This document shows positions 11,310-48,361 of a stretch of 48,361 nt of DNA, piece after piece. Position 1 is the stretch's first letter; the number at the start of each line of letters is the position of its first letter. A model generated the notes under the pieces. It was not told where the DNA came from. It saw only the letters and a program-made list of their open reading frames with translations, and did not search any database. A program made the translations under genes and the position numbers. Origin of the DNA: a virus; the IMG/VR virus record IMGVR_UViG_3300034024_000090, positions 1-48,361 of that record; one strand, given 5' to 3'.

Positions 11310-11681
11310 CTAGTTTCCGGCTCCGAAAAGCTCATAGATCGTGCGCTCGTTCTCGAGGTCGAGTTCGATCCGCGACGCGAGGGTGAGGCCGTCGACGCCC
11401 TGCTCCGCGTCGATCAGCCGCAGCTGCGGCACGCCCGCAGTCAGGTCGGGCCACACCTCCTGGTCGACTTCGACCGCAAAGCGCCACCGCTCGGTCCCGA
11501 TTAGCGCGCCGCGGGCGTTGAGCACGGCTTGCGCGTCGGCCGCGCTGTCGAAGAAACCTTCGCCCGGCTCGCTCGCGCCGTCCCGCGCGAAGGGGTAGCG
11601 CTGCGCAATCGCAGCGCTGGTCCACTCGACAGTGCTGGCTTCGCGCGTGCCCGCCTGGATGTCGGCGACGAGGGCGGGCAT
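11310..11681 (-). CDS. Putative minor tail protein
   Basis: A 123-residue acidic protein starting MPALVADIQAGTREASTVEW, with no membrane segment or known motif. Its start overlaps the tape measure stop by one base and a strong hairpin follows its stop. In long-tailed phages this slot is usually a small tail-assembly or distal-tail protein (lambda M/L position). Family not recognised; assigned by position. Confidence 0.5.
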   Translation of the reverse strand: MPALVADIQAGTREASTVEWTSAAIAQRYPFARDGASEPGEGFFDSAADAQAVLNARGALIGTERWRFAVEVDQEVWPDLTAGVPQLRLIDAEQGVDGLTLASRIELDLENERTIYELFGAGN

Positions 11682-14600
11682 CAGCGCATCGCGACCTGGG
11701 CGGCGGTGAAGGCGCGACCGCCGCCCCCGATGAAGCCCGACCCCGAGCCGCCGCCACCGCCCAGCATGGCCACGGCTGCATTGAGGCCGGCCATCTGCTG
11801 GGACAGCTGCGCGAGGAGTTCATTGGACGTCTGCACGCCGGACGCGGTTGAGGCGGTGGCGCTGGCGGTCGCCTTCGCGAACGGGCTCTCCACCGCCGGC
11901 GAGATCGGTTCGACGTTGTCGATTGCGCCGATCGCCTTGTTCGTCGCTCCCTGGACCAGGTCCATGAAGTCGAAGAAGCCCTGGGTGGACCCGTAGATCT
12001 GACGCTCGATGTCGAGCGCGGTCTGCGCCGCGGCCTGGTACTTCGACACATCGACGCGCTGGCCCGCGTTGATCTGCTGAAGAAAGGGCTGGAGCGCCGC
12101 CTGGGCCTGGGAGCGCTGATCGCGCAGACTGTAGGGCGAGTTCGGGCCGACCTTCAGATCAGCCAGGAAGTCCTTCAGCGACTGGCTCGCGCTCTCGGTC
12201 GAGTTCTTCACGTCCGCGAGCTGCAGGTCGTAGAGGCGTTGAGCCTGCGCCATCTGCTCCGCGGACGCGCCGCCTTCCTTCAGGGCGTCTACGGTGCGCT
12301 GGAACTTGCGGTTGAGCTCGTCGATGGCCGCGCCGACGGGGTCGAGCGCCGCCTTCAGATCCCGCGGGACCGCCTCGATCAAGCCCGCCTTGGTGATGGC
12401 GGCTTCGAGGTCTTGGCCCGACTTGATGATGTTCACCGACGCCTGGCTGATCCCGGTGATGATGCTCTGGGTCAGGGTCGTCTTGATCGCGAACTCGATC
12501 GCGGCCTTCTCGTCCTTGCCGAAGTCGTACAGGCCGCGGCCGCTGGCGCCCTTGAAGTCGAGCTTGCCCTGGTAGCCCGTCGTCGAGACGCGGAACTTGT
12601 CCTTGTAGGTGCCGAGCGTCAGCGTCGGCGCGCCGGTGATCGTCGCGCCGAGCTGATCGACGATGGCGTTGACGCCCTTGGCGACCGTGGACGCGACGCC
12701 CGACACGGCCGTCTGCCGAGACCCGGAATTGCCGGTGGCCTTCCCGCCATCGAGCGCACCGTTCGAGAAAGTGACGCCGGCGGTGGCGTACTTCGCCTTC
12801 GTGAACAGCCCTGCCGCGACGTTGCCCAGGATGCCGCCCACGATCGAGCCCAGCGGCCCCGCGGCGCCGCCGAGCGTCTTGCCCAGCGTGCCGCCGATCG
12901 CGCTCGAGATCGCTGGGCCGAACGACTTCCCTACCTCTTTGCCGAGGATCCCGCCGATACCGGACGCCAGCGGGCTCTGCTTACCGCCAGTGATCGATGA
13001 AAAGACCGACCCGCCGAACTGGCCGTACGCCACGCTGGACAACGCACCGCTGATCCGCCCGAGCGACCGCTCGCCGATCTCGATACCGTTGCGGGACAGC
13101 GCCTGGCCGATCGAGTCAGCGACCTCGCGGGACTGGCCCTCGATGCCGCCGGGTTGCAGCACCCGGGCGAGAGGCCCCGAAACCCGAACGCCCAGGAGGT
13201 CCGCCGCCGATACGACTCCGTCGCGGAACGTATCGGCCGCCGATCGGATGTCCTGACCGAAAGCCTCGGATGCGGACCTGATCCGCGCGTCGAACTCGTC
13301 GAGTGCGCGGTCGACCTGTTCCGGCCCGGCGATGCGGCGGAAGTCGTCGTTCGCGGCAGAGAGGCGCGTGCTGTCGTAAGCCGATTTCGCCGCGGCCTGG
13401 AAGCCGATCGCGTCGGAGACGCCGATCTTGCCCGCGGCCTGCAGCTTCGCGATCTCGGCCAGCTCTGCGCGGTAACGGCCCGCGGCCGCGGCGGCCGGGT
13501 CGTAGCGCCCGATCAGCCCTTCGAGCGCGGACTCCAGTTCACGCTGCGCCTGCTCGAGCTCGCGCTCGGCTTTCGCGGCGTCGCGGACGGACGCGTTGTA
13601 ATTGTCGAGGGCGAACTTCCCCTTCTCCCATGCGACGTGGAAGTGGTTCGCGTGACCTTTGTCGCCTGGGCCGAAAAGCTGCTCGACGCCCTTTGCGTTG
13701 CGTCGGATCGGGATGCCGGCGGTTTCGAATATGCGCCGGATGTCATCCTTACCGAGGGAGCTCATGCCGCCACGCGGGACGAAGTCGATCGCGCCGCCCT
13801 TATAGTGGTCGGACCCGGCGACATGCCTGCCGCCGGTCGTACTGGTGATCTGGACCCCGGGAAGCGCGGAGCGCAGCAGCTTCGCGATCGAGGCCGGCGT
13901 CGCTACATCGGAAGCCGCTGCACCGGCCGACGGCCGCTTGGCGTCCCGCGCCGCCTTGACCTCCCGGTCGCGCTGCTGCCGGAGCGCAAGGCCCCGACGT
14001 TCGAATTCGGCCTGGCTGATCGCGTCGCGCTGGCGCTCCTCGCGCAGCTTGCCGAGGGCAAGCGCATAGCGCTCCGTCGCCGCCGTGCTGCCGTCGAGCG
14101 CGGCCTCGATCTTGCGCTCGGCGATGACGATCTCGGCGCGGCGGACCGTCTCGCGCGCCTCGTTTGCATTAGCCGCCAGCCGGTCGACGTTTGCCTGCAG
14201 ATCTTTCACCCGCGCCTCAGCGGCCCGGATCGAGGACTCGAGGGTCCCGCGCGACTCCGCGCTGTTGAACGCGCTGTCGCGACGCGCGCGTAGCAGCCGG
14301 AGATCGCGCTGGGCCGAAGCGAGCTCGCCGCTGGCCTGACCGAGCCCGCCTGCCCCGGCCTTGCCGGTACCGTAGAGGGTGGCGGCGAGCTGGCCTCGCG
14401 CTTCGCTCAGCTTCTCGTCCTGTAGCTGCTGCGTCGTCTTGAGCTGGCGCTCCAGCTCCTTGTTCAGCTCCTTCATGGCCGCGACCTGGCCATCGACCGA
14501 CTTCGACCAGATCTCGTTCGCCTGGCGATCGATCTCCGTGGCCGAGGCCTTCTCGCGCAGCTTCTTCACCGCGTCCTCGAGGGCGTTGCCCCCCTCGAAC

Positions 14601-15343
14601 AGCTTGGCCACGAACGGCGTCAGGGCCACCAGACCGACCGTGAGAGCGGTGCCCCAACCGCCCGTCAGGAACGCGCCGACGGCTCCGAGCTTGCCCTCGA
14701 AGTCGCGCAACGCAAGGCCGGCCTGAGGTGCCTGCTGAGCGAACGCGACGAACGCGCTCTGGCCCGACGAGACCTGAACCGCGAAGTCCTGAAATTGCTG
14801 GCCGAGCATGACGACGCCCTGCTGGTTCCGCGCCGTCCCCCGCGTGGCCGCGTCGGTCGACGCGAGGTAGAGCTGGGTGGCGCCGCCGGTCCGGGCGAGT
14901 TCGGCCTGTACCGCCTCGAGCGCTCTGATGCGCTGCCGGATCGCGCCGGCGGCTTCCTGCTCGGCCAGCGCGGCGACACGCGAAGCGTCGGCCTCGAGCC
15001 GCATGGACTCGACGACTGCGCGTCCGCTGCCCGCCACACTGGCCTGGGCGACGGACAGCTCGCGAAGCGCCGCAGCGCGCTGATCCGAAGCGAGCGCCGC
15101 GCTCTTCAGCGACGCGATCTCGCCGGACAGGTCGAGCCCGCCGGTTGCGGTCCGGGGCAGATCGATCGCGGTGCGGGCGAGGCGGTTCACCTCGGCGAAC
15201 GAGCTGCTGAACGTCGAGCGAACGTCGTCGGCGGCCCGGCGAGCGTTCGCGCTCATCTCCGCGAAGCGCTTTCCCGACTCACTGCTGAACTGCTCGGCGC
15301 GCAACTGGAGGCGTGCAACGATGTCGACCGTGCGGTTGGACAT
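11681..15343 (-). CDS. Tape measure protein with M15 peptidase-like domain
   Basis: A 1220-residue tape measure protein. The N-terminus (VDIVARLQLRAEQFSSESGK) and long helical Ala/Glu/Arg-rich stretches are typical, and a hydrophobic segment near 225-255 fits the usual membrane-active region. Residues about 480-575 carry a zinc peptidase signature: S511-x-H513-x2-G-x-A-x-D520 and HFH at 567-569, as in M15 D-Ala-D-Ala carboxypeptidases. H513, D520 and H569 are the probable zinc ligands. This domain may open murein during DNA injection. A Gly/Ala-rich region follows at about 740-830. Length should set the tail at roughly 180 nm by the usual 0.15 nm per residue (inference). Confidence 0.85.
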   Translation of the reverse strand: MSNRTVDIVARLQLRAEQFSSESGKRFAEMSANARRAADDVRSTFSSSFAEVNRLARTAIDLPRTATGGLDLSGEIASLKSAALASDQRAAALRELSVAQASVAGSGRAVVESMRLEADASRVAALAEQEAAGAIRQRIRALEAVQAELARTGGATQLYLASTDAATRGTARNQQGVVMLGQQFQDFAVQVSSGQSAFVAFAQQAPQAGLALRDFEGKLGAVGAFLTGGWGTALTVGLVALTPFVAKLFEGGNALEDAVKKLREKASATEIDRQANEIWSKSVDGQVAAMKELNKELERQLKTTQQLQDEKLSEARGQLAATLYGTGKAGAGGLGQASGELASAQRDLRLLRARRDSAFNSAESRGTLESSIRAAEARVKDLQANVDRLAANANEARETVRRAEIVIAERKIEAALDGSTAATERYALALGKLREERQRDAISQAEFERRGLALRQQRDREVKAARDAKRPSAGAAASDVATPASIAKLLRSALPGVQITSTTGGRHVAGSDHYKGGAIDFVPRGGMSSLGKDDIRRIFETAGIPIRRNAKGVEQLFGPGDKGHANHFHVAWEKGKFALDNYNASVRDAAKAERELEQAQRELESALEGLIGRYDPAAAAAGRYRAELAEIAKLQAAGKIGVSDAIGFQAAAKSAYDSTRLSAANDDFRRIAGPEQVDRALDEFDARIRSASEAFGQDIRSAADTFRDGVVSAADLLGVRVSGPLARVLQPGGIEGQSREVADSIGQALSRNGIEIGERSLGRISGALSSVAYGQFGGSVFSSITGGKQSPLASGIGGILGKEVGKSFGPAISSAIGGTLGKTLGGAAGPLGSIVGGILGNVAAGLFTKAKYATAGVTFSNGALDGGKATGNSGSRQTAVSGVASTVAKGVNAIVDQLGATITGAPTLTLGTYKDKFRVSTTGYQGKLDFKGASGRGLYDFGKDEKAAIEFAIKTTLTQSIITGISQASVNIIKSGQDLEAAITKAGLIEAVPRDLKAALDPVGAAIDELNRKFQRTVDALKEGGASAEQMAQAQRLYDLQLADVKNSTESASQSLKDFLADLKVGPNSPYSLRDQRSQAQAALQPFLQQINAGQRVDVSKYQAAAQTALDIERQIYGSTQGFFDFMDLVQGATNKAIGAIDNVEPISPAVESPFAKATASATASTASGVQTSNELLAQLSQQMAGLNAAVAMLGGGGGSGSGFIGGGGRAFTAAQVAMR

Positions 15344-15372: not shown

Positions 15373-15618
15373 ATGAAGAAGATCACGATCATGGCGGCTG
15401 CTGGCGCAGCGCTACTCGCGGCCTGCATGGGTCAGAGCGAGGCCGAGAAGGCGGTCCGTGAGTATGATATCGTCGCCAAGCAGGGCACCAATGCAGAGAA
15501 GTGCGCGGCGGCGGGAAAAGCCGCTGAGGCATGGCTGGGTGAGCAGAACGAAGCTCAGTATCAGCAATGGAAACGGACGCGCGATATCTACTGTCTTGCG
15601 GCAGAGTTCGGCAAATGA
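15373..15618 (+). CDS. Small lipoprotein on opposite strand (moron candidate)
   Basis: An 81-residue lipoprotein: MKKITIMAAAGAALLAAC is a classical type II signal with lipobox LAAC and Cys18. The mature part is short, charged and has two further Cys (EKCAAAG and DIYCLAA). It is the only rightward gene within the leftward structural operon and lies exactly between the tape measure start and the preceding tail gene. Its base composition is visibly less GC-rich than its neighbours. These are the hallmarks of a moron expressed from a prophage, often for superinfection exclusion. That role is inferred. Confidence 0.7.
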   Translation: MKKITIMAAAGAALLAACMGQSEAEKAVREYDIVAKQGTNAEKCAAAGKAAEAWLGEQNEAQYQQWKRTRDIYCLAAEFGK

Positions 15619-15626
15619 GGCCGACT

Positions 15627-16292
15627 TCAGCCTGAGTTGATCGCCCCCGCCCCTCGCAGAAACTCCGCCACCATCTCCCGCTCGGCTTGCTGCACCAGCG
15701 GCCCGACCGCGACCGTATTCCGGTGCCGAACCAGCGGCAGCAACACGAAAATAGGAACCGTCGCGCTGGCCCGACCCGTGGCGATGCGTCGCGCGGTATT
15801 CCCCCGCGCCAGCTGACGCCTGCCAGAGAGCACCGCGTCGTCCAGGACCAGCAGCGACGGGCGCCCCTGCCGGTAGACGAAGCGCAGGCGCTTGCCCGTC
15901 CTCCGCTCCCACTCGCCCGGCGTTAGGTTTCGCAGACGCCCGGTCGAGCCAGCCGCCGGCAGAGGAATCGCGAGGAACTGCCCCGCCTTCCCCCTCACCT
16001 CGCCCGGCTGCGACCAGAATTGGATCGCGCCGCGCGACCGATCACGGCCGTTGACGAAGACCTCGCCGACCGGGTTCCGCGCCGGGCCTTTCTCCGGATA
16101 GGCGTCGGATGCCCAAGCGCGCCAGAGCCGCCCCGGGACCGCCGCACGCGTAGCAGCCTCTAGATTACGCTCGAGGCGCTTAGTCGCGCCCGCCACCGCC
16201 GCCGTGCCGGCGGTGAGGTAGCGCCGGATCGTCCGGTCGCCGTCGGCGCGCAGTTGTGCGTCGTCGATCGTCAGCGTCGCGCCGTCAGCCAT
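15627..16292 (-). CDS. Phage tail protein, DUF6441-like
   Basis: I start this 221-residue protein at the ATG reading MADGATLTIDDAQLRADG, because that ATG overlaps the stop of the frameshifted chaperone extension upstream. It has basic helical sequence (TKRLERNLEAATRAAVPG), then RARNPVGEVF-type and LRFVYRQGRPSLLVLDD beta segments, ending in a helical tail. This resembles the DUF6441 proteins found in tail clusters of alphaproteobacterial phages. Located between the tail chaperones and tape measure, it is probably a minor tail or tail-completion protein. Family name moderately certain; function unknown. Confidence 0.6.
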   Translation of the reverse strand: MADGATLTIDDAQLRADGDRTIRRYLTAGTAAVAGATKRLERNLEAATRAAVPGRLWRAWASDAYPEKGPARNPVGEVFVNGRDRSRGAIQFWSQPGEVRGKAGQFLAIPLPAAGSTGRLRNLTPGEWERRTGKRLRFVYRQGRPSLLVLDDAVLSGRRQLARGNTARRIATGRASATVPIFVLLPLVRHRNTVAVGPLVQQAEREMVAEFLRGAGAINSG

Positions 16293-17156
16293 CTTCCCGG
16301 TCCAAGCTGTCGAGGAAAGCGAAAGCGTCGAGCAACGCCGCCGGCTGATCGCCCGGGCTGCCTGGACATGGCAGCACGCGCCCACCGAACGGGCCAGCGT
16401 AGCGGCGGCACGTCAGCCACAGGTCGACGACGCCCCAGACCCACGAGGGCAGCGCCAGACGCGGGTTCTCTAGCCAACGCTCTCCGGCGAGCTCCCATCC
16501 GCCGTCGACGTGTCGTCCGAAGCGGAAGTCTGCGGGCCGGTCTCGGACGATACGGGCCGCTCGGAGTTTCCCTCCTCTCCAGTCGAGAACTGGAGCGCGT
16601 AGGCGCGATTGCCGGCGGAGAGCAGCTCGATCGACTGGAGCCGGCTAAGCGCCGCTTCGGTCACCATGCCGTCCCGGCCTCGCGCGAACGGCACGGGCTT
16701 GCCGTCCTCGCCGGTGACGCTGTCCCAGCCCGCGCAGAAGCGCTTGAGCGCGACCACGGGCGCGATCTCGCCCCGCCGCGCGCGCCGCGCGACGAGGTCG
16801 CGATAATCAGGCCAGTGCGCGACGAGCACCTTGCGGACGTCGACGAGCAGGCGGACCTGCTCGTCCGGCAGCTTATCGGTCGTGGGATCCTTGATCTGGG
16901 TCTCGGCCTCGATCGCGCCGAGCACCTCGTCCAGGCCGGGATCGCCTTCAAGGAGGACTGACACACCGGCGACGGCGGCCTGGTGCAGCTCGAAGCTGTA
17001 CACCCGGCCGGCATCATGCTCGCCGGCGAGCTCGGCCTCCATACGTCCGCGCTCGATCACCCCGCCGGCGCGGAGGTGGAAGACGGGCGGGTTCGGACGA
17101 TCGCGCAGCCACTCAGGCGTGAACGGGATCGTCTCGGTGGTGCTGGTCGAGATCAT
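16285..17156 (-). CDS. Tail assembly chaperone GT (-1 frameshift product)
   Basis: This product shares the first 197 residues with the G-type protein, then continues in the -1 frame for 93 residues to a stop at 16285-16287, giving about 290 residues. The extension is open, rich in Trp and Leu (WELAGERWLENPRLALPSW, then WGVVDLWLTCRRYAGPFGG), and looks like a folded domain. Its stop overlaps the ATG of the next gene, as at other junctions in this genome, which supports its translation. In lambda-type phages the GT fusion bridges tail tube protein and tape measure during assembly. Confidence 0.75.
16470..17156 (-). CDS. Tail assembly chaperone G (zero-frame product)
   Basis: A 228-residue protein directly after the tail tube gene and before the tape measure block, the position of lambda gpG. 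It begins MISTSTTETIPFTPEWLRDR and has a helical middle (DRDLVARRARRG region), then a Ser/Thr/Glu-rich tail after residue 197. That tail has disordered composition, as expected when a slippery site diverts some ribosomes before it. No enzymatic motif is visible. It should coat the tape measure during tail assembly together with the frameshifted form. Confidence 0.7.
   Translation of the reverse strand: MISTSTTETIPFTPEWLRDRPNPPVFHLRAGGVIERGRMEAELAGEHDAGRVYSFELHQAAVAGVSVLLEGDPGLDEVLGAIEAETQIKDPTTDKLPDEQVRLLVDVRKVLVAHWPDYRDLVARRARRGEIAPVVALKRFCAGWDSVTGEDGKPVPFARGRDGMVTEAALSRLQSIELLSAGNRAYALQFSTGEEGNSERPVSSETGPQTSASDDTSTADGSSPESVG
16566..16572 (-). promoter_or_regulatory. -1 ribosomal frameshift slippery heptamer G GGA AAC
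   Basis: On the minus strand the heptamer GGGAAAC lies in the frame X XXY YYZ relative to the chaperone start at 17156: GGA is codon 196 and AAC is codon 197. Both tRNAs can re-pair as GGG AAA after slipping back one base. A purine-rich, Shine-Dalgarno-like GGAGAGGAG lies immediately upstream, a known kind of stimulator. I do not see an obvious stem-loop just downstream. Lambda uses the related GGGAAAG at the same gene position. Confidence 0.75.
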
Positions 17157-17169
17157 GGGGTTGCGGTCC

Positions 17170-18408
17170 TCAGGAAAAGGCGAGCACGAAGTCGCCGTCG
17201 CGGTTCGCGTTGTCGCGGCCGGGCGTGAGCAGCTGGTAGCGCAGCGTCTCCGACCGGAGCTTTCCGCGCTTGCCCGGCGTCGTCTCCACCGGCTGGCCGA
17301 CCGGCACCATGATCGACACGCGGTTGCCCGCGACCGACCCCATCTGGATCGAGGCGACGTGCTGCGCGAATGCGGCGATGTCGGCGAGGGAGTTCCGCGT
17401 CGCGACGAGGGTGGTCAGCGGGTCCAGCTCGAGCATCGGCGTGCGGCCGGCGATTTGCCCGCCTGCGAAACCATAGGTCGAGTTGGGATCATCGGGCGTC
17501 TCCAGCGAGCCCTGCGGATTGATGGACCAGCGGCTGATCGCGAGGCCGCGGCGGTTGATCTGAAACGCGGGCTGGGTCCCCGCGCCCTGAACCAGCAGCG
17601 GAGCGGAGTGGCCCGCCACCACAGGGTTGGTCGGCATCGCGGCGTCGACCCGGCCCATGTAGACGCCGGTCAGGTTGAAGACGGCGAACCCAGGCTGGCC
17701 CGCGGCGCCCTCGTATGTCACCGTGCCGCGGCAGTCCTGCCACTGGTGCAGCACCCCGTCCTCGTAGAGATACACGGTCGCGCACGGGTGCATCGACGCG
17801 CGGGACGCGGCGTCGCTCGGCGTGGTGCCGGCATAGGTCCAGGTCGCGGGCACCGCCGCCTGGTTGGTGGCCGACAGCGCGGACCCGAACACGTCGGTCA
17901 GCGTCGCGACCTTGCCCGCGGTATAGTCGGCGATGAGCGAGGCGCGGCCGGCGGCCGGCGCGCCGGTCAGGAGCAGCGGCACGCCGCGAAGCGCCTGGGC
18001 CGTGGCCGGCGCGCTGGCGCCGAGCGTCGCGCTCTGCGCCGTGCCGGCGGTCAGCGCCGCGGCCGCGATCGCGGCGACGAACTGGCCGAGCATGCCGCAG
18101 ATCTGGAGCGGAACGTGGAGCGGCGGGCGAACGCTGGCCGTGTACGCGACGCCGGGGCCTGCCCCTTTTAGGCGGCTTCGGAACGAGATGGTGGCGGGCT
18201 GGCCGACGACCATGGGCGCGGACGCGACGAAGCTGCCGTTGGCCTCCGTCGTCGCTTCCGAGCGGAACGGGCCGTTATAGTCCAGGGAGTCGGTCTCGAA
18301 CGGGATCGCGTCGGTCGCCGCCGACGGGACGGCAGGCGAGCCCTCGGCGCTCTGGGCCGCGATGCACAGCAGCGAGTTTTCGGGGCGGATGGGTGCGTCG
18401 ATCGCCAT
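17170..18408 (-). CDS. Major tail tube protein
   Basis: A 412-residue protein starting MAIDAPIRPENSLLCIA, long for a tube protein. The N-terminal part (ETDSLDYNGPFRSEATTE) and C-terminal part (GKRGKLRSETLRYQLLTPGRDNANRDG) are typical of major tail proteins of alphaproteobacterial siphophages. The Ala/Gly-rich central region probably forms an extra surface domain. It sits between the tail terminator and the G/GT chaperones, matching lambda V. It should polymerise into hexameric rings forming the tail shaft. Confidence 0.75.
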   Translation of the reverse strand: MAIDAPIRPENSLLCIAAQSAEGSPAVPSAATDAIPFETDSLDYNGPFRSEATTEANGSFVASAPMVVGQPATISFRSRLKGAGPGVAYTASVRPPLHVPLQICGMLGQFVAAIAAAALTAGTAQSATLGASAPATAQALRGVPLLLTGAPAAGRASLIADYTAGKVATLTDVFGSALSATNQAAVPATWTYAGTTPSDAASRASMHPCATVYLYEDGVLHQWQDCRGTVTYEGAAGQPGFAVFNLTGVYMGRVDAAMPTNPVVAGHSAPLLVQGAGTQPAFQINRRGLAISRWSINPQGSLETPDDPNSTYGFAGGQIAGRTPMLELDPLTTLVATRNSLADIAAFAQHVASIQMGSVAGNRVSIMVPVGQPVETTPGKRGKLRSETLRYQLLTPGRDNANRDGDFVLAFS

Positions 18409-30811: not shown

Positions 30812-31392
30812 CTGCTCGCTCCTTGACGGAACAGGACCGGCCGCTGGTACGGATCGATGCGGTGACGCCCCCGCGCGAGCGGATGCTTAGGCGCCCCGGC
30901 GACGGTCGTTCCCCAGCACCACAGATCGGGCCAGGGCGCGGGACCGGACTGGATCGCCTCCAGCACTTCGCTGATCCAGAGGTCATCCCAGGCGATGGCG
31001 CCATAGCAGACGAACACGTGATCGGCCCGCTTCGCCATGGTCGCGACCGCGTCCAGGTTAGCGTGCAGCTGGTCGCGATCGTACCACTCGCCGCCCCACG
31101 CCTCCTCGACGCGCTGGCGGCACTCGACCGGGCTCGCGGTGCAGAAGGGGTATAGGTTGCCCGCGTCGTATCCACCGAAGCCGAAGAAGGCGAACCAGCG
31201 GTTCCACCATCGCGACGTCGGGTCGTCGCTCATCGCGTCCGCGGCCGACGGGTTGCAACCCAGCACGAAGGCCCGCGGGCCGGGGCCCCAGTCGCGGGAG
31301 AGGCGCTGGCGCACGCCGTCGCATGGGAAATGCGCGGAGCGGCGGAGCATCGGCTCGCCGAACAGGTCGAGCGCGTGGTGCAAGTTGGTCAT
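30808..31392 (-). CDS. DUF1643 family protein
   Basis: A 194-residue protein with DUF1643 features: GPRAFVLGCNPSAADAMSDD (about 38-57), DPTSRWWNRWFAFFGFGGYD, then GNLYPFCTASP, and a C-terminal HPLARGRHRIDPYQR. DUF1643 proteins are small enzymes of unknown reaction common in phages and near nucleotide or DNA modification genes. It lies between the PAPS-reductase-like gene and the replication initiator. Confidence 0.8.
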   Translation of the reverse strand: MTNLHHALDLFGEPMLRRSAHFPCDGVRQRLSRDWGPGPRAFVLGCNPSAADAMSDDPTSRWWNRWFAFFGFGGYDAGNLYPFCTASPVECRQRVEEAWGGEWYDRDQLHANLDAVATMAKRADHVFVCYGAIAWDDLWISEVLEAIQSGPAPWPDLWCWGTTVAGAPKHPLARGRHRIDPYQRPVLFRQGASR

Positions 31393-32519
31393 GCCGCCCT
31401 CTTGGTCGCGGAGAGGGCCACAAGATCGGCGAACCGGTCGATCACCATTGCAGGTGTCGGGAACAGGTTGGGTTGGCCGTGGCGGGCGAGCAGCTCTGCG
31501 CGCACCTCGGCGATGATGACCGCCTCGCCATGATCAGGAACGTAGAGCGGCCAACCTTCGACGAAGCGGTGCCGCGCGGGCATCGCGGCCTCGAGCTCGC
31601 GACGGCGCGCCGCGTCGCCCTTGCTGCCCGCGAGCTGCCGTCGCTGAAGGCCAGTGAGGAGATGGGGTGCGCGGTCCGCCAGCCAGCTCGCCGCCTGGAA
31701 CGAAAAGGTGGACTCGATCTCGAAGCCGATGATGAGCTCGAAGTAGGGCGCGGCCTCCGGCTCCCGGCCCGCGATCTCCAGATCGTCTCGCGAGCCCATG
31801 ATGCAGGCTGAGCAGCTATGGCGGGAGCAGCCGAGGCCGTACACGCGGGAAAGCGGGATGCCGTGACGAAGGTTCGCGGCGAAAACGTCCGCGACCGCCA
31901 TGTGCACGCCGGGGTTCCAGACCATCATACGGGTGCCCCAGCGATTGCCGGGCGTCACGAACCGCTTGTCGACCTTGGCGATCGGCGTCGACCGTCGACC
32001 GTGGCTCTCGTCGCGACGGAGGCCGGTGACCTGTACGATCGTCTCGCCCCGGTACCGCTTCGCGAGCGCCGGACCCATCACCTGGATCTTCTTCTCGGAC
32101 TGGCAGAACTTAAGCGAGGGTGACGACCAAGGCCCGCGCAGGTTGTAGAGCAGCATGTCGCGATAGGCCGCGAGACCGAGCTGCCACCGCCCTTGGAAGC
32201 GGCTGAACAGGTCGCCAGCCGCGGCACGCACTACGATCAGCGGCACACGCAGTGCAGCCGCCTGCGCCTCGACCTGAGCCGGGGTATGCGGCCATTCGGC
32301 GCGGCCGAGGTCGGCGTGCATCGCGATACGGCGCGAACTGGGGTGGCCCAGCTGGTCGAGGTGCTTGTCCGCGAGCGCCGCGACCGCGCCGCAATCCTTG
32401 CCTCCTGAGAGGGAGTAGACGAACCAGGCGCCCTGGCGCGCCGCCTCGTCGACCATGGGGTCGGTCGCGACGTCGTCGGGCCCGCGCGGCGGCGCGAACA
32501 GGTCGGCTATCGCGCTCAT
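31389..32519 (-). CDS. PAPS reductase-like / ATP pyrophosphatase family protein
   Basis: I start at the ATG giving MSAIADLFAP, whose ATGA overlaps the upstream stop; 376 residues. SLSGGKDCGAVAALA at 36-50 is the SGGKD PP-loop of the adenine-nucleotide alpha-hydrolase superfamily, which activates a substrate with ATP. The following HADLGRAEWPHTPAQVEAQA and LRRDESHGRR segments agree with the PAPS reductase-like branch. A Cys-rich block GCSRHSCSACIMGS near 270 could bind metal or an Fe-S cluster, as in DndC-type sulfur enzymes. The substrate is unknown. Confidence 0.75.
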   Translation of the reverse strand: MSAIADLFAPPRGPDDVATDPMVDEAARQGAWFVYSLSGGKDCGAVAALADKHLDQLGHPSSRRIAMHADLGRAEWPHTPAQVEAQAAALRVPLIVVRAAAGDLFSRFQGRWQLGLAAYRDMLLYNLRGPWSSPSLKFCQSEKKIQVMGPALAKRYRGETIVQVTGLRRDESHGRRSTPIAKVDKRFVTPGNRWGTRMMVWNPGVHMAVADVFAANLRHGIPLSRVYGLGCSRHSCSACIMGSRDDLEIAGREPEAAPYFELIIGFEIESTFSFQAASWLADRAPHLLTGLQRRQLAGSKGDAARRRELEAAMPARHRFVEGWPLYVPDHGEAVIIAEVRAELLARHGQPNLFPTPAMVIDRFADLVALSATKRAA

Positions 32520-33109
32520 GCCATCCCACCCTGTCGCATCGCCACCAGCGTGGGCTCCAGAAGGTACGGCAGGCACGCCGGCGCTCGCGCCACGACGCAG
32601 GACACCATGGCATCGGCGTCGAGATCACGCCCGAGGTGGACCGCGATAAGCCCGGCCATCTCGCGCGGGCGGAGCAAGAGGCAGTCGAACGGTACGACCA
32701 TGCGCCTGCCTCGCCACGCGTCGACGGCATCGAGCGCTGAGCCAGCCGCTTCCGTCTCGCGGCGGAGCTGGCGCTCCATCCGCTTCCGGTTTCCTCGGCC
32801 CTGATCGACGCCGACAACCTTAAGCTGGCTCCGCGCCTGTTCGCTCCAGTCGCGGAACAGCCAGAGGACGCGATAGTCCGGGCCTGCGGGAGGCGGCGCG
32901 CGGTGTGGGTCGAGCAGCTTTACCGCGCGGCCGGCTGCCTGCGCCTGCCACGATGCAGGATCGCTCCGCCGAAGGCTGTTGTGATCCTGGTCCTCGAACG
33001 ACGGCCATAGACCTACGCACGGCACCCCGCCGGCCGCGAGCATCTGCATCATGAGCGACGTGCCGCACCGGCCCAGGCCGGCGACGAGGATGATCTCGGG
33101 GCGGCTCAT
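32516..33109 (-). CDS. Sulfotransferase-like P-loop protein
   Basis: A 197-residue protein beginning MSRPEIILVAGLGRCGTSLM. The GLGRCGTS motif at 11-18 is the 5'-phosphosulfate-binding P-loop typical of sulfotransferase-fold proteins. A second region DYRVLWLFRDWSEQARSQ resembles the 3'-phosphate-binding motif, where an Arg and Ser contact PAPS. It is shorter than many cellular sulfotransferases. It is coupled by ATGA to the PAPS-reductase-like gene, suggesting shared sulfur chemistry. The acceptor is unknown. Confidence 0.65.
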   Translation of the reverse strand: MSRPEIILVAGLGRCGTSLMMQMLAAGGVPCVGLWPSFEDQDHNSLRRSDPASWQAQAAGRAVKLLDPHRAPPPAGPDYRVLWLFRDWSEQARSQLKVVGVDQGRGNRKRMERQLRRETEAAGSALDAVDAWRGRRMVVPFDCLLLRPREMAGLIAVHLGRDLDADAMVSCVVARAPACLPYLLEPTLVAMRQGGMA

Positions 33110-33576: not shown

Positions 33577-33767
33577 CGGCGGCCTCCGTCGGTCCTGAAC
33601 AAGCGCAGCTGCGTGCCCTCGCCCGGGTGCAGCCGATCGAGGTCGCGGCACTCGGAACAGGTGCACGCTTGGCCGGCTTCGCACCCAAGCCGCGAGGGCT
33701 CTGAAGCCGACTGCCGACTTGAACGTGAGCACCGGTCCGAGGCGCTGGGCAGAGCAGGCCGGGTCAC
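33573..33767 (-). CDS. Small Cys-rich protein
   Basis: A 64-residue protein with a GTG start overlapping the methyltransferase stop (GTGA). Cysteines 29, 35, 37 and 40 (GCEAGQACTCSECRD) could bind one zinc ion. A basic, Ser-rich N-terminus precedes it and LRLFRTDGG follows. Similar tiny Cys-rich genes are common in phage early operons. Function unknown. Confidence 0.5.
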   Translation of the reverse strand: MTRPALPSASDRCSRSSRQSASEPSRLGCEAGQACTCSECRDLDRLHPGEGTQLRLFRTDGGRR

Positions 33768-35941
33768 GCCGCCACCCTAAGCTGGCGGGAGCAGGGCTGG
33801 TTCGCCGCCACCAGCGCCCGGGCTACCGGCGGGCAGACGCTGTTGCCAATCGCGCTGATCTGCTCGGCGATCGTAAGCGGGCGCTCCACCCACTTCCCGC
33901 GCAGGAACTTCCGCACGACCGGGTTCAGGATGTAGCTGTCCGGGAAGCCCTGGGCGCGGGCGAGCTCGCGCGGCTTGAGCATCCGCAGGCCGATGTCGAC
34001 GATGACGTAGGTCTTGGCGTCAATCGTGACCGTGACGACCGCAAAGCGGGCCCGGGTCGTGACCGTGTCGAGCGGCCGCTCCGCGCGCTGGATCTGCGCG
34101 GCCTCGCTCTCGCCGTCCGAGCCGTAGTACTTCACCAGGAACGCGGCGACGGTGACGGCGCGCGCCATCATCTCGGGCGGGAGCGCGCCCTCCTCGACCA
34201 TCGTGGTCTCGACGACGCGCTGGGTCGACCCCTTGCCGACGATGGTGCTGAGCGGCTTGCGCGCGTCGTGGCCGACCATCCCGGTGTTGGCTTGCTCGAC
34301 GTGCGCGGCGACGACCGCATGATGGTTCGCGCCCGCGAGCGCCGTCTTCAGCGGCATGCGCGGATCGGCGCGGCCGCCGTTCGTGTTGCTGGTGTAGAAG
34401 CTGGACAGGAACGCGGTGACCGCGGCCGACTTCCCGCCGCCGCCCGCCGTCGTGGCCGCCAGCGGCTCGGCCACGTCGTTGCCGGTCGAGTTGCCGAACT
34501 GCCGATCGATGAAGGCCGCCTCGGCGAGCGTCGCCTGGGCGACCGCGGCTTGTGAGCCCTTCGCCGTGACGGTTCCGAACGGCCGAGCAGGGTTTAGCGC
34601 CCGCGGCTCCTGCCCCTCGCGCTCGCCGTTGCCCATCTTCACCAGCGTCGCGCCGACCAGGTTCTGATGCGCGCCGCCGGCGGTGACGGTGTGCGTGGGC
34701 TCGTCCGCGGCCGTGAACGGTTTGGCCGAGTTCCGGTTGGTCATGACGTGCGGTGCGAGCACCGCCTCGACGAGCCCGAAGGTCGGGTCGCAAGCCGTGG
34801 TGCGCAGCGGCTCGTCGACGGGGTTGCTGGCCCGCACCTGACCGCCTGGTTTCTCGCCGTAGAAGGGCGTGATGACGGCCCCGACCACGCCGAGCGGACT
34901 GGCTCCAGCTGGCCGCGCGGGTTCGCCGTTGGCGGTCACGGTCGGCATAGGCGCGTCGGCCGGCGAGCCGACCGAGCCCGTCCGAAACTTGGTGACGTGA
35001 GGAGCGACGGTGACGTCCACCGCGGCGAACTCGCCACCGTTCGCGGTCGTGATAGTCCGTAGCGGTTCCGAGGTGGCGTGCGCGCGCGGACTCGCCTGGG
35101 TATGGGTGACCGGCACGATGAAGGGCTCGGCCGCGTTCACGACATAGCGCATCACGCCGTGCGCGATCCGCCGCTTCGTCGCCTCGGCCAGCTCGCGGGC
35201 GCGCTTGAAGATCGACGGGCACGGGATGGTCCAGTCGATGCACTCGGCCGCGGTGCGATAGGGCTGGAGCCTGCCGCTGCGCACGCCGGGCGAGCCGGCC
35301 GCGCCGTGGGTCGCCTTGGGCCAGACGATACGCTGGCCGTCGCGACGCATCACCATGTACAGGCGCTTCCGGCTGGTGGGCGCGCCATAGTCGCAAGCCT
35401 TCAGGATGCGCCAGGCGACCCGATAGCCGAGCGCCCGGATCGCGCGGACGAACCGCTTGAACTCGCGCCCCTCCTGCCCCTTGATCGGGTTGCCCACCTC
35501 GTCGAGCGGGGCGGCGTATTCGAACTCCTCGACGTTCTCGAGATAGCCGCAGGTCGGCTGCACGTCCTTCAGCCAGACCACGACCTCCCAGCAGAGCGCG
35601 CGAATGCTGCGGTCCTTTACCGGACCGCCCTTGGCTTTGCTGAACTCCTTGCAGTCGGGGCTGAACCACGCCCCGGCCACCGGCCGCATCCGCGTCGCCG
35701 CGAGCGGCCAGACCGCCTTGATGTCCTGGCAGTAGTGGGTCGTGTCGGGATGGTTGGCCTTGTGGATCGCGATCGCGGTCGGGCTGTGGTTGATCGCGAT
35801 GTCGACGCTTCGGCCGATCGCCTGCTCGATTCCGGTGCTGGCGCCGCCGCCGCCGGCGAAGCCGTCGATGAACAGCCCGTCGACCTCGATCGGCGTGAAC
35901 GCGAGCGTGGCGCTCGCGACGAAGCCGGTGACCGCGCTCAC
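33764..35941 (-). CDS. C5-cytosine DNA methyltransferase with repeat array
   Basis: A 725-residue cytosine-5 methyltransferase. Motif I is DGFAGGGGAS (26-35), motif IV is SPDCKEFS (94-101) with catalytic Cys97 in the phage PDC form, and ENV is at 135-137. The C-terminal motifs RELARAQGFPDSY and GNSVCPPVARAL are motifs IX and X. Between about residues 290 and 640, where the target recognition domain belongs, lie about nine repeats of 35-55 residues, each with EPLxTxTAxG-type cores. It probably protects phage DNA from host restriction; the target site cannot be read from sequence. Confidence 0.85.
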   Translation of the reverse strand: MSAVTGFVASATLAFTPIEVDGLFIDGFAGGGGASTGIEQAIGRSVDIAINHSPTAIAIHKANHPDTTHYCQDIKAVWPLAATRMRPVAGAWFSPDCKEFSKAKGGPVKDRSIRALCWEVVVWLKDVQPTCGYLENVEEFEYAAPLDEVGNPIKGQEGREFKRFVRAIRALGYRVAWRILKACDYGAPTSRKRLYMVMRRDGQRIVWPKATHGAAGSPGVRSGRLQPYRTAAECIDWTIPCPSIFKRARELAEATKRRIAHGVMRYVVNAAEPFIVPVTHTQASPRAHATSEPLRTITTANGGEFAAVDVTVAPHVTKFRTGSVGSPADAPMPTVTANGEPARPAGASPLGVVGAVITPFYGEKPGGQVRASNPVDEPLRTTACDPTFGLVEAVLAPHVMTNRNSAKPFTAADEPTHTVTAGGAHQNLVGATLVKMGNGEREGQEPRALNPARPFGTVTAKGSQAAVAQATLAEAAFIDRQFGNSTGNDVAEPLAATTAGGGGKSAAVTAFLSSFYTSNTNGGRADPRMPLKTALAGANHHAVVAAHVEQANTGMVGHDARKPLSTIVGKGSTQRVVETTMVEEGALPPEMMARAVTVAAFLVKYYGSDGESEAAQIQRAERPLDTVTTRARFAVVTVTIDAKTYVIVDIGLRMLKPRELARAQGFPDSYILNPVVRKFLRGKWVERPLTIAEQISAIGNSVCPPVARALVAANQPCSRQLRVAA

Positions 35942-36216
35942 GCTGCCACCTCGCGGAGTTTGCGGGCATGCTCCACCATCCGCGCCGCTTGCTTCTCCAG
36001 CGCACCCGCCGCGAGCGCCAGGTCGCCGTTCGATACGCCTCGTTCGCCGGTGAGCTTGGCGCGCAGAGTCCGATGCGCTATCCCCAGCGCATCAGCTAAT
36101 GGCGGCTTCCCGCCCAAGAGCGAAGCGGCCGTCTCCAGCCCCATCATCCGCGTGATCTCGATCGAGTATCCGCCCTGTGCCGGGATTGCGGCACAGGTAG
36201 CCGTCGCCGCGCTCAT
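35938..36216 (-). CDS. Small HTH protein
   Basis: A 92-residue protein with a HTH in PPLADALGIAHRTLRAKLTG (38-57) and GVSNGDLALAAGALEKQAAR after it, like the compact repressor fold of phage Cro-type proteins. It overlaps the following methyltransferase gene and the preceding helicase gene by four bases each. It may regulate this operon or assist DNA recognition by the methyltransferases. Function inferred. Confidence 0.55.
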   Translation of the reverse strand: MSAATATCAAIPAQGGYSIEITRMMGLETAASLLGGKPPLADALGIAHRTLRAKLTGERGVSNGDLALAAGALEKQAARMVEHARKLREVAA

Positions 36217-38825
36217 GACGCGTGCTCCATGTCCAAGAGGTCGAAAAGGCTGGCGGTCGCGCGGCCCGCGTCCTGCTCGCGCAGGAGCCGGACACCGTCG
36301 GCGAAGTAGCCGGGGTTCAGTTCGCTCGCGGCGCCCCGGCGGCCATGCTTCACCGCGCGGAGCGGCACGGTCATGAGCCCGCCGAACGGGTCGTAGATCA
36401 GGTCGCCTGGGTTGGACCAGCCGAGGATGGCGCGATCGACCATGTCGAAGGGCAAGGGGCAGAGGTGACCCTCCCTACCCTTCTGCGCCTGCAAGGTGTT
36501 CGCGCCGAGCATGCGCGCGACGTCGGTCCACACGTCTGGGTGCCAGCTCTGCGGGGGCAGCAGCGCGAAGTCCGTGGGTAGGGCGTGACGTGCCTCGACG
36601 GACTCGGTGAGCGCGACATGCGCCTCGTGATCGTACGGCCGCGCGAAGCTGAAGCCTCGGTAGAGCTGGTACATCGCGTCGTGCGGGATCCCGACCAGGT
36701 CCTCTGGTCCGACCACCCGGTCTCCCGACGAGCGCCAGAAGCCTGCCGCGTCGTTCTGCCAACGTGAGCGGGAGTAGCCGGAGCCAGGGACGAGCCGAGC
36801 TTTCGAGGACCGCACCCTCGCGTCGTCCCAGTCGACGACCTCGCCCGTATCGAGCTCGACCATCGGCTTCGCCTTCACGACCGGATCGTCGGCATATCCA
36901 CGGGTCCGGTCGGTCTGCGGCTTTCGGAACAGCAGGAAGTATTCCGGCATGCCGACGCCCATGCGGGAGCCGTCTTTGCACTGCTCGGTCCAGCCCAGAC
37001 GATACGTCTGCGCGTTCTCACGCACCACGTCGGTGACGATCGTGATCATGCCCAGGTAAGCGAAGCCGTGCGCCCGGTAGTGCTCGATGCATTGGGCGTG
37101 GAACGGGTCGACGGTTTGGAAGCCGAGCCCGTCCATGCCGCCGGGCCGGACGCGATCTTTAACGTGGACGGCGAGACGGCGGCCGGGCTGAAGCACCCGA
37201 AGCAGCTCGGGCGTCAGGTAGTCCATCTGCCGGAAGAAGTGCGCGCCGTCGTCCGAGTGGCCGAAGTCGTTGTAGCTCGGGCTGTACTCGTACTGAGTCG
37301 AGAACGGCACCGAGGTTACGACCAGCCCGACGCTGTCCGCCTCCATTCGGCGGGTCTGGAGCACCGTGTCGTTGCGCCACACACGCCAGCCAGGGCCGGT
37401 CTCCTCCTCCCCGGCGTCGCCTGTCTCGACGGTCCGGGCGAGGACGTCGCCGGCGCCGGCCAGCCCTAGGCCGTAACGCCGAATGATCGCGCTCATACGC
37501 TCCGAGACTTCCTCGTGCTGCGCCCACTTTCGCTCGAGCGACCGACGGACCGCGCGCTCGGCCTCCGAATAGATCAGGTCGATCCGGACCGGGTTCGGCT
37601 GGAGGAAGCGCTGGATGCGGTGGATGGCCTGGATGAAGTCGCGGAACTTGAAGCCGATGCCCAGGAAGATCGCCCAGGAGCAGTGGCGTTGGAAGTTGCA
37701 GCCCGCGCCGGCGATGACCGGCTTGGTCGCAAGCTCCCGCACCTCGCCCTGGCTGAACGCGCGCAGCGTGGCCGCGCGCGCGTCGAGGTCTTGGCTGCCC
37801 CACACGCTGACCACGTCCGGCACGGCGCGCTCGATCGCTTCCCGCTCGCGCTCGAGGTCATGCCAGAGCAGGCGATGTGCATCCGGCGCCTCGGACCGCA
37901 GCTCCAGCATTTTCGCGATGCGCGCCGGCAGGCTGTCGCGCTTCTCGCGCGCGGCGTCGACCAGGCCGATCGCCTCGCGACGGAGCAGAAGGTGCTGCCC
38001 GCCTTTCTCCTCACCCGCGTTCGCGTGATCGCTCGGCACCTCGTGCCAGCGGACATCGAGTGGCGGCAGCGCGTAGCCCTCGTCGGAGAAGCCGAGGTCG
38101 GACGGACGCTGGACGAACGCGGCCCAGCTGTTCATCCATAACCAGAACTCCTCGACCTTGTGCGGGTGGATCGTGAGGTTGTCCGCGTCCTCGCTGTTGC
38201 GCTTGAAAAAGCGGGTCTTGGCCTGCCCGACGTCCATGACCTCTAGGAAGGCGCAATAGGCGAGCAGCTCGATGTACTCGTTCGGGCTAGGCGTGGCCGT
38301 TGCGACGAACTTGAACGGCATACCGTCGAACAGCCGCATGAACTCGCGGAAGGTCTTCGAGCCCCCGAACCCGCGCAGGCAGTCCGCTTCGTCGAGCGAC
38401 GCCGCGTTGAAGAGCGACAGGTCGATCTTGCCGTCGCGGACGCTCTCGTAATTCGTGATGTACAGGCCGGGCTCAGCAGCCTCTCCCGCTCCGGTGCCTT
38501 TCACGAACCGGATCGCCACGTCGAGCTTGCCGGCGTCGGCCGCGAACGTGCCTTCGAGGATCACGTTCAGCGGCGCGACCACCAGCTGACGACCGCCCTG
38601 CGCCGCCCCGATCAGCCGAAGAGCCTCGACCTGCATGAGCGTCTTGCCGAGGCCGAAGTTGGCGAAGCAGGCACGCCGGCCGCCGCGCACCATCCACTCG
38701 ACCAGAGCGCGCTGGTGCGGCTTGAGGATCGGGTGGATGTCGCGTGGATCGAGGTCGATCCCGAGCGGCGGGAGCGTGATGATCTTCGCGCGGACGAAGT
38801 CGAGATAGCCGATCGGAGCGTTCAT
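36213..38825 (-). CDS. Helicase-methyltransferase fusion
   Basis: An 870-residue protein starting MNAPIGYLDFVRAK, with its ATGA overlapping the upstream frame. Residues 30-460 are a superfamily 2 helicase: FGLGKT Walker A (57-62), DEAD at 145-148, ATATPSPNEY and an HRIQR motif VI. After about residue 500 comes a DNA methyltransferase: TSVPFSTQYEYS as a variant motif IV and DLIYDPFGGLMTVPLRAV with SELNPGYF as motif I, permuted as in beta-class N6-adenine or N4-cytosine enzymes. It combines translocase and modification activity, as in restriction or anti-restriction proteins. No nuclease motif is seen. Confidence 0.75.
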   Translation of the reverse strand: MNAPIGYLDFVRAKIITLPPLGIDLDPRDIHPILKPHQRALVEWMVRGGRRACFANFGLGKTLMQVEALRLIGAAQGGRQLVVAPLNVILEGTFAADAGKLDVAIRFVKGTGAGEAAEPGLYITNYESVRDGKIDLSLFNAASLDEADCLRGFGGSKTFREFMRLFDGMPFKFVATATPSPNEYIELLAYCAFLEVMDVGQAKTRFFKRNSEDADNLTIHPHKVEEFWLWMNSWAAFVQRPSDLGFSDEGYALPPLDVRWHEVPSDHANAGEEKGGQHLLLRREAIGLVDAAREKRDSLPARIAKMLELRSEAPDAHRLLWHDLEREREAIERAVPDVVSVWGSQDLDARAATLRAFSQGEVRELATKPVIAGAGCNFQRHCSWAIFLGIGFKFRDFIQAIHRIQRFLQPNPVRIDLIYSEAERAVRRSLERKWAQHEEVSERMSAIIRRYGLGLAGAGDVLARTVETGDAGEEETGPGWRVWRNDTVLQTRRMEADSVGLVVTSVPFSTQYEYSPSYNDFGHSDDGAHFFRQMDYLTPELLRVLQPGRRLAVHVKDRVRPGGMDGLGFQTVDPFHAQCIEHYRAHGFAYLGMITIVTDVVRENAQTYRLGWTEQCKDGSRMGVGMPEYFLLFRKPQTDRTRGYADDPVVKAKPMVELDTGEVVDWDDARVRSSKARLVPGSGYSRSRWQNDAAGFWRSSGDRVVGPEDLVGIPHDAMYQLYRGFSFARPYDHEAHVALTESVEARHALPTDFALLPPQSWHPDVWTDVARMLGANTLQAQKGREGHLCPLPFDMVDRAILGWSNPGDLIYDPFGGLMTVPLRAVKHGRRGAASELNPGYFADGVRLLREQDAGRATASLFDLLDMEHAS

Positions 38826-39177
38826 CGCGCCTGTGCTCCCAGCCCGCGGCGGATCGACTTCCACAGCTCCTCGGCGCGGATCACCGTCACGCGCATCTCG
38901 GCGGCGGCGTGAACGAGGCTGGGCGCGCCCTCCGCCATGATCTCGGCGAGCCGATTCATCTGCCGCCGCCGGCCGTCGCCGGCGAGCATGCGGGTGCGCC
39001 GTTCCGCTGGCAGGCGCGGGTCGCCCGCCTCACGCATCCGGCGGACCTGGCCCGCAACGGCCGCGCGGGAGACGCGACGTCCGCGCTGATCGCGTCGAAC
39101 GTCGCGTCTTTGGCGAGCAGCTCGACCAGGCGCGCGACGCGAGCCTCGGGCCAGGGCTTGGGAGAGACCCCGCGCAT
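38822..39177 (-). pseudogene. GcrA-like HTH gene with single-base frameshift
   Basis: From the ATG at 39177 one frame reads MRGVSPKPWPEARVARLVEL, then LAKDATFDAISADVA and loses sense. From about 39075 the -1 frame reads VSRAAVAGQVRRMREAGDPR and continues to a stop coupled (ATGA) to the helicase gene. Adding one G at about 39075 joins them as ISADVGVSRAAVAGQVRRM, a normal GcrA-like/HTH motif, giving 118 residues. No slippery heptamer is near. Thus a one-base deletion has broken the gene, or the read has an error. Confidence 0.65.
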
Positions 39178-46780: not shown

Positions 46781-47091
46781 CCGGCTCGGCAGAGGTGGCG
46801 GAGATCGCGAGGGCACGAGCGCGGTTGGAACGCGACACTGATCCCGCTGTCGTCGCGCGCCACATGGAAGGCCTGCGTCGGTACGCCGAGCGTATCGCGG
46901 GAGCCGGACGACGCTGCCGGACGCAACAGTGCGCTCACGACGGATCATGCGTCGAATGCGGCGCGATCCAAGGCGAGGCCTGTCTCCAGCACCTCCTCAA
47001 CCAGGGGAACGGCGGCGTCGATCAGATCGAGCGCAGGCGAGGCGTCACGCCGCCCGCGGGCGTCCGATCAGCAGGTCCAGCGCCGGCCTAA
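46777..47091 (+). CDS. Small Cys-containing protein, end of rightward operon
   Basis: A 104-residue protein with a GTG start overlapping the previous stop. RCRTQQCAHDGSCVECGAIQ followed by ACLQH places four Cys and two His as a possible zinc site. The N-terminus is helical and basic. It ends 46 bases inside the convergent integrase gene, so its last residues may not be functional. Role unknown. Confidence 0.5.
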   Translation: MTGSAEVAEIARARARLERDTDPAVVARHMEGLRRYAERIAGAGRRCRTQQCAHDGSCVECGAIQGEACLQHLLNQGNGGVDQIERRRGVTPPAGVRSAGPAPA

Positions 47092-48361
47092 GACCCTCGG
47101 TCGTCTGATCGGCCCACCAGCGCGCCAGCTCCCAGCGCCGGGGCATGTGCCGGGCGCGGTTGTAGGCCATCTCGGCCGCCGAGATCCCGCGCGCCTTGTG
47201 CGACAGCATGGCGTCGATGATCGGCCGGTCGGCCTCGCGCTCGAGCACCGTCGCGCGCTCGTTCATGATGGTCGAGAAGCTTGTGCGCCAGCCGTGTGGC
47301 ACATGCCGGCCGCGGTACCCGACGCGATTGTAGGCGACGCCGATCGTCGAGCTGCTCATCGGCTTGTGGGTCGAATGGAACGAGTGGAACAGGTAGGGGT
47401 AGCGGCCCGTCAGCTTGCGGACGGCGCGCAGCACGTCGACCGCCTGGGGCGTGAGCGGCGCGACGTGCTCGAACGCCTCCTCGCCCTTGTCCTCGATCTC
47501 AAGCTTCATGCGCTCGGCCGACACGCGCCACACCGGATCGGGGGCATCGTTCTCGCCGCCGGGGGCATCCCAGTCGATGCCTTCGAACTCGTGCCACTTC
47601 GCCGAGGGCACGAGGCCGGGCCGGACGAAGGTCAAGCCGAGCAGCCGGGACGCGAGCTTGGTCAGCGGATGTGCGGTGGACCCGTCCACCGCGGCGTGGA
47701 GCTCGCGCAGCGCCGCGATGCTGTCGAGCCCCGGCATGCTGCCCCCGACGGGGGTGGGCAGGAGCGACTTCACCACCTCCTGGCCCGCTGGGTTCTTCCG
47801 CGTCTCGGGATAGACGCCCTCGCCCACCGCGAACTCGAACACGGCCCCGATGTGCTGGCGGATGCGCTTCGCCGTGTCGATCGCGCCGCGCTTCTCGACG
47901 CGGCGCAGAAGCCGGACGATCGTGGCGCGGTCGATGTCGACCAGCGGCAGCTTACCTATCTGGGGGAAGACGTCGCGCTCGAGCGCCTGCCGGACCTTGG
48001 TCGCGTTGACCGGCGACCAGCGGCCGAGCTGGGCCTCGTGCCAGCGGCGGGCCACGACCTCGAAGGTGGCGGCCGTGTCGACCTGAGCCGCGAGCTTCCG
48101 CTTCCGCGCCTCGGTCGACGGATCCTTATGGTCGCGGAGCAGACGCTTGGCGTCGTCGCGCAGGTCGCGCGCCTCGCGGAGTGACACGTCCGGGTAGAGC
48201 CCGAACGTCATCCGCTTCTCCTTGCCGTCGTAGCGGTACTTCCAGCGCCAGGACTTCGCGCCCTTGGTGGTGACGAACAGGTGCAGCCCGCCGGCGTCGG
48301 CGAGCTTGTAGTCCTTCTCGCCCGGCTGGGCTCTCTTCACCTGGTTGTCGGTCAGCGGCAC
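47045..48361 (-). CDS. int: Tyrosine integrase, P4 type (DUF4102)
   Basis: A 438-residue integrase. The N-terminus (MPLTDNQVKRAQPGEKDYKL, then GGLHLFVTTKGAKSWRWKYR) is the DUF4102 arm-binding domain. Catalytic residues are Arg247 (FVRPG), His356 and Arg359 (HGWR) and Tyr400 (AYNRAR). The GTG start lies exactly at the window edge; a start further out cannot be excluded. P4-type integrases usually insert at tRNA 3' ends; the attachment site would lie just outside. It converges on the rightward operon. Confidence 0.9.
   Translation of the reverse strand: MPLTDNQVKRAQPGEKDYKLADAGGLHLFVTTKGAKSWRWKYRYDGKEKRMTFGLYPDVSLREARDLRDDAKRLLRDHKDPSTEARKRKLAAQVDTAATFEVVARRWHEAQLGRWSPVNATKVRQALERDVFPQIGKLPLVDIDRATIVRLLRRVEKRGAIDTAKRIRQHIGAVFEFAVGEGVYPETRKNPAGQEVVKSLLPTPVGGSMPGLDSIAALRELHAAVDGSTAHPLTKLASRLLGLTFVRPGLVPSAKWHEFEGIDWDAPGGENDAPDPVWRVSAERMKLEIEDKGEEAFEHVAPLTPQAVDVLRAVRKLTGRYPYLFHSFHSTHKPMSSSTIGVAYNRVGYRGRHVPHGWRTSFSTIMNERATVLEREADRPIIDAMLSHKARGISAAEMAYNRARHMPRRWELARWWADQTTEGLRPALDLLIGRPRAA

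Follow-up and report, generated by a model that had tools for sequence, protein, structure and literature searches.

A putative lambda G/GT-type tail assembly chaperone gene with a conserved -1 slippery site in a phage that probably infects sphingomonads

The slip site of the tail assembly chaperone gene of phage lambda, G/GT, is GGGAAAG, whereas the gene considered here has GGGAAAC. Translational slippage of this kind is well known in tailed phages and is not in itself new; the frameshift mechanism of lambda G/GT is established and widely conserved (PMC5009743). In the Caulobacter phages, the chaperones that precede the tape measure gene have AAAAAAC in phiCbK and its relatives and GGGAAAC in Colossus (PMC3556154). 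These phages also have alphaproteobacterial hosts, and their two heptamers are the same two as in the family described below, although a tblastn search of the phage collection with our fused protein gave no match. Two Rhodobacter phages offer further comparisons. In RcKemmy, gp15/gp16 are annotated as a joined tail assembly chaperone with an in-phase GGGAAAC and a -1 extension like that of our gene, and they directly precede the tape measure gene; by profile, however, neither domain of our family is similar to them. In RcDurkin, the C-domain of gp42/gp43 is weakly similar (an LPCPGG..QPA motif) and follows an in-phase A AAA AAG in the -1 frame, but the pair is annotated as two separate genes, is very divergent and has AAG in place of AAC. 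In this phage (L012:6420-7330) the A AAA AAG comes shortly before gp42 ends, and the -1 frame stays open into gp43; we would suggest from the sequence that gp42/gp43 is an unannotated frameshifted chaperone.

The window analysed here, that is, the whole stretch of 48,361 nucleotides (IMG/VR record IMGVR_UViG_3300034024_000090), carries a leftward lambda-like head-tail module. Its gene order begins with terminase gpA, a lambda-family portal, an S49 protease, head protein D and capsid protein E, and continues with a head-tail attachment protein, tail terminator, tail tube, the chaperone gene, DUF6441 and the presumed tape measure. The features that concern us are the following:

17170..18408, minus strand: tail tube (major tail) protein, upstream neighbour (tblastn to annotated Rhodobacter phage tail tube proteins)
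17156..16470, minus strand: zero-frame chaperone gene (G-like), 228 aa, with a conserved N-domain at residues 1-197
16572-16566, minus strand: slippery heptamer G GGA AAC, in the correct zero-frame phase
16285..16566, minus strand: -1-frame extension (T-like), 93 codons plus a stop at 16287-16285
16470..16565, minus strand: overlap, the zero-frame tail under the -1-frame code, 31 codons past the site and Ser/Thr-rich
15627..16292, minus strand: DUF6441 tail protein, downstream neighbour (PF20039, E=6e-20)
11681..15343, minus strand: presumed tape measure protein, 1220 aa, from its position and length
47045-48361, right end of the window: integrase

As in lambda G/GT, the gene follows the tail tube gene, specifies a short zero-frame and a longer -1 product and has an X XXY YYZ site near the end of its first ORF; unlike lambda, the window has the DUF6441 gene before the tape measure gene, and the product matches no chaperone profile. 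An earlier note on this DNA had assigned the gene to the lambda G/GT position, and rightly so: it lies between the tail tube and tape measure genes, with the one DUF6441 gene intervening. The note gave no strand; the gene is on the minus strand. Its reading of GGGAAAC in X XXY YYZ phase at codons 196-197 agrees with the reading frames (the first G closes codon 195, GGA is codon 196 and AAC codon 197). The -1 frame is indeed open for 93 more codons, up to the stop ending at 16285, for a fused product of 290 aa, and the zero-frame tail is of low complexity, as had been claimed. The note had further described the -1 stop as overlapping the ATG of the next gene. The two reading frames do overlap, by 8 nt, but with that ATG at 16292 the stop falls just beyond it and not on it. 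On comparative sequence evidence, this is very probably a tail assembly chaperone gene of the lambda G/GT type whose long product would arise by a -1 slip at G GGA AAC. Some points speak against the frameshifted chaperone reading: neither domain is named as a chaperone by any profile or fold library, one lineage (L004/L005) is without a canonical heptamer, no stimulator was found, and A AAA AAC is a much poorer slip site in E. coli than A AAA AAG.

Within the window, neither the heptamer nor the open frame stands out. GGGAAAC occurs 3 times where 3.08 occurrences are expected, and the approximately 6,500 codons of the structural genes contain 11 in-phase X XXY YYZ heptamers. Since the genome has 70% GC and 93 or more open -1 codons follow 40% of codon positions, the open -1 frame is weak evidence. 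Both frame openness and heptamer count, being at chance level within the window, were rejected as stand-alone evidence. That the feature is real rather than fortuitous is settled, as far as sequences can settle it, by conservation among relatives and not by the window alone.

Such relatives were sought with the fused protein and its alignment in IMG/VR contigs, bacterial genomes and phage records, and two further IMG/VR relatives were reached through the tail tube gene. One relative is in Sphingomonas solaris and another in Synechococcus phage MinM1. Of 401 genomes sampled from the family around the S. solaris genome, 13 had a relative, as did 6 of 385 sampled at class level, both counts including S. 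solaris. With near-identical copies (L004/L005, L006/L007, L008/L015 and L018/L027) counted once, there are 25 distinct loci, the window included, and in every one of them the C-part is in frame -1 relative to the upstream ORF. Twenty loci match the family profiles in both parts, and all of these have the N-part in frame 0 and the C-part in -1. In L023-L026 and MinM1 the C-part alone matches its profile, but it too is shifted by -1 relative to an upstream ORF, one of similar length and with the same kind of end as in the rest of the family. Homologs of the -1 extension, the absence of which the earlier note had named as fatal to its reading, thus exist and are always in the -1 frame. A single virus contig of high GC could also acquire a two-frame gene through sequencing error or gene decay; this reading, of negligible probability, is refuted by the relatives: all 25 distinct loci, some of them in isolate genomes, share the -1 arrangement. 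In the MinM1 record the chaperone gene is split over the record ends (L037:2-577, L038:3855-4109), with the C-part annotated as a separate gene, and the sequence across the record junction reads A AAA AAC TGA.

The slip site is conserved to nearly the same degree. An in-phase X XXA AAC stands at the junction in 24 of the 25 distinct loci, as G GGA AAC in six (the window, L002, L003, L016, L017 and L018) and as A AAA AAC in eighteen (L006, L008, L009, L010, L019-L026, MinM1 and L051-L055), so that a functional slippery heptamer has been kept among the relatives and the loss envisaged in the earlier note is confined to one locus. The run of six A in the eighteen relatives might invite transcriptional slippage, in which the RNA polymerase adds or drops bases at a run. 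Yet in the six GGGAAAC loci, the window among them, no base is repeated more than three times in a row at the site, making transcriptional slippage very unlikely for them, and the codon phase of X XXY YYZ is kept, as slippage of tandem tRNAs requires; overall, we find it extremely improbable that the frame changes at the level of transcription. The sole lineage without X XXA AAC, L004/L005, comes from two metagenomes and reads GAC CGG ACT TTT CAG (around L005:4478-4489). Its -1 frame opens just three codons ahead of the conserved domain, and the shift must therefore occur there, most simply, we infer from the sequence, by slippage of just one tRNA on T TTT.

The stretch read in both frames gives a further view of the -1 ORF. 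Over the first 31 codons after the site, in the 13 loci that have the overlap, the proportions of differing bases are 0.27, 0.31 and 0.44 at -1 codon positions 1-3. Between L002 and L017 the overlap has 2, 3 and 12 differences at these respective positions (12 of 17 on the third), with amino-acid changes at 3 of 36 residues in the -1 frame versus 14 of 35 in the zero frame. The earlier note had proposed comparing codon-position bias in both frames, and the third-position bias follows the -1 codons. The overlap, judged from these substitutions, evolves as -1-frame code, with selection at the protein level on the -1 ORF. Because the differences follow the -1 codon positions, the low-complexity zero-frame tail is a by-product of the -1 code; it is also dispensable, since in five lineages (L003, L018/L027, MinM1, L052 and L054) the heptamer is immediately followed by a stop.

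The downstream ORF might instead be a gene in its own right, with translation beginning at a start codon within it or by reinitiation and the heptamer merely incidental, and the annotators of MinM1 and RcDurkin did indeed call the C-part a separate hypothetical gene. However, from its opening to the conserved domain the -1 frame of the window has no ATG, GTG or TTG, and most relatives are alike in this; as the first such codon is codon 63 of the 93-codon extension, the conserved domain cannot have an ordinary start of its own. Moreover, the heptamer is conserved exactly at the junction, and we give a separate gene scarcely any credence. What comparison of these loci does demonstrate is the conservation of the two-frame architecture, of the slip site and of protein-level selection in the -1 frame.

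Genes with a programmed -1 frameshift frequently, though not obligatorily, have a stimulatory Shine-Dalgarno (SD)-like element or downstream structure. The sequence downstream of the site in the window folds no better than its shuffles (z of -0.4, 0.05 and 0.9 for 40, 60 and 80 nt), in keeping with the earlier remark that no downstream stem is evident. Stable hairpins are predicted after the slip site in some relatives (z down to -3.4); among the relatives there is no convincingly conserved helix, the consensus fold having -5 kcal/mol, and an Rfam search of the region gave a chance match only. The purine-rich, SD-like element that had been noticed at the slip site is present in the window, where it matches AGGAGG at 6 of 6 positions and overlaps the heptamer, but it is not conserved among the relatives. 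The slip site probably works alone at low efficiency, as in lambda.

With respect to the protein, the AlphaFold model of the N-domain (residues 1-197) has a mean pLDDT of 90.6, and in it only residues 1-3 and 193-197 are modelled with low confidence; that of the extension has a mean of 84.8. Since both models are confident and the low confidence extends up to the slip site, the frameshift would join two folded domains via a short linker. A match to a chaperone profile is usual for tail assembly chaperones of the G/GT type, although it does not define them. The earlier note had proposed searching for the 290-residue product among such chaperones. The fused product, both parts and eight family members, scanned against Pfam, PHROG and NCBIfam, gave nothing above chance. 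Sequence and fold searches of the PDB returned nothing significant, a tblastn search of the phage collection with the fused product found no match, and the best viral fold matches had E >= 0.06, some named tail assembly chaperones being among these insignificant matches. As no library match names either domain, the chaperone role rests on position, architecture and the weak link to the RcDurkin C-domain. The frameshift might thus be real and the product some other tail morphogenesis factor, a reading that the absence of sequence or fold matches to a known chaperone family and the DUF6441 gene preceding the tape measure gene would both favor. We nevertheless consider it improbable: position and architecture fit G/GT, and the C-domain is weakly similar to the -1-frame region behind RcDurkin gp42, an annotated tail assembly chaperone. 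From its place between the tail tube and tape measure genes we infer a G/GT-type tail assembly chaperone, and the family is a new one, with a known mechanism and no profile in Pfam, PHROGs or NCBIfam.

The predicted course of events is as follows. Most ribosomes would make the short 228-aa product, while a minority would step back by one base at the G GGA AAC heptamer, with tRNA-Gly and tRNA-Asn re-pairing on GGG and AAA, and would go on to the 290-aa product with its second, 93-aa domain. By analogy to lambda, the short form would coat the tape measure protein and the long form would recruit tail tube subunits through its extension, and the ratio of the two would matter.

The virus itself probably infects sphingomonad bacteria and, because there is an integrase at the right end of the window, is probably temperate. 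The right half also encodes two proteins of DNA methylase type (C5 and N6/N4) and one with a PAPS-reductase domain (33764-35941, 36213-38864 and 31389-32576, all on the minus strand). Between the DUF6441 and tape measure genes, in a typical moron position, there is an 81-aa ORF with a lipoprotein-like signal (15373-15618, plus strand); it has no family match above the cut-off, with just short 13-residue matches in viral contigs. The tape measure candidate has no Pfam match. Several relatives too have a gap or small ORFs between the DUF6441 and tape measure genes (L005:5435-6039, L006:5601-5933, L008:5563-5847), that of L006 having a transmembrane-like start, and the interval looks as if it were an insertion spot for extra genes.

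In all 24 conserved heptamers the A-site codon is AAC, never AAG or AAA. The E. coli ribosome slips far less readily on A AAA AAC than on A AAA AAG, and roughly half of the bacteria known have just one tRNA for lysine (PMC5009743). Of six host genomes examined, at least five have a tRNA-Lys(CTT) dedicated to AAG, which could make A AAA AAG poorly slippery and would fit the avoidance of AAG. It is conceivable, though we hold it to be rather doubtful, that the slip sites of these alphaproteobacterial phages are tuned to the tRNAs of their hosts, using tRNA-Asn and no stimulator in the mRNA; RcDurkin, with its in-phase A AAA AAG, may be a counter-example.

The second domain of this chaperone family is invisible to ordinary gene callers, and in annotations of phages and prophages of sphingomonads and other Alphaproteobacteria the long product will be missed or split into two genes. 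The heptamers ending in AAC, together with the one T TTT-type lineage, constitute natural variants for tests of slip sites outside E. coli.
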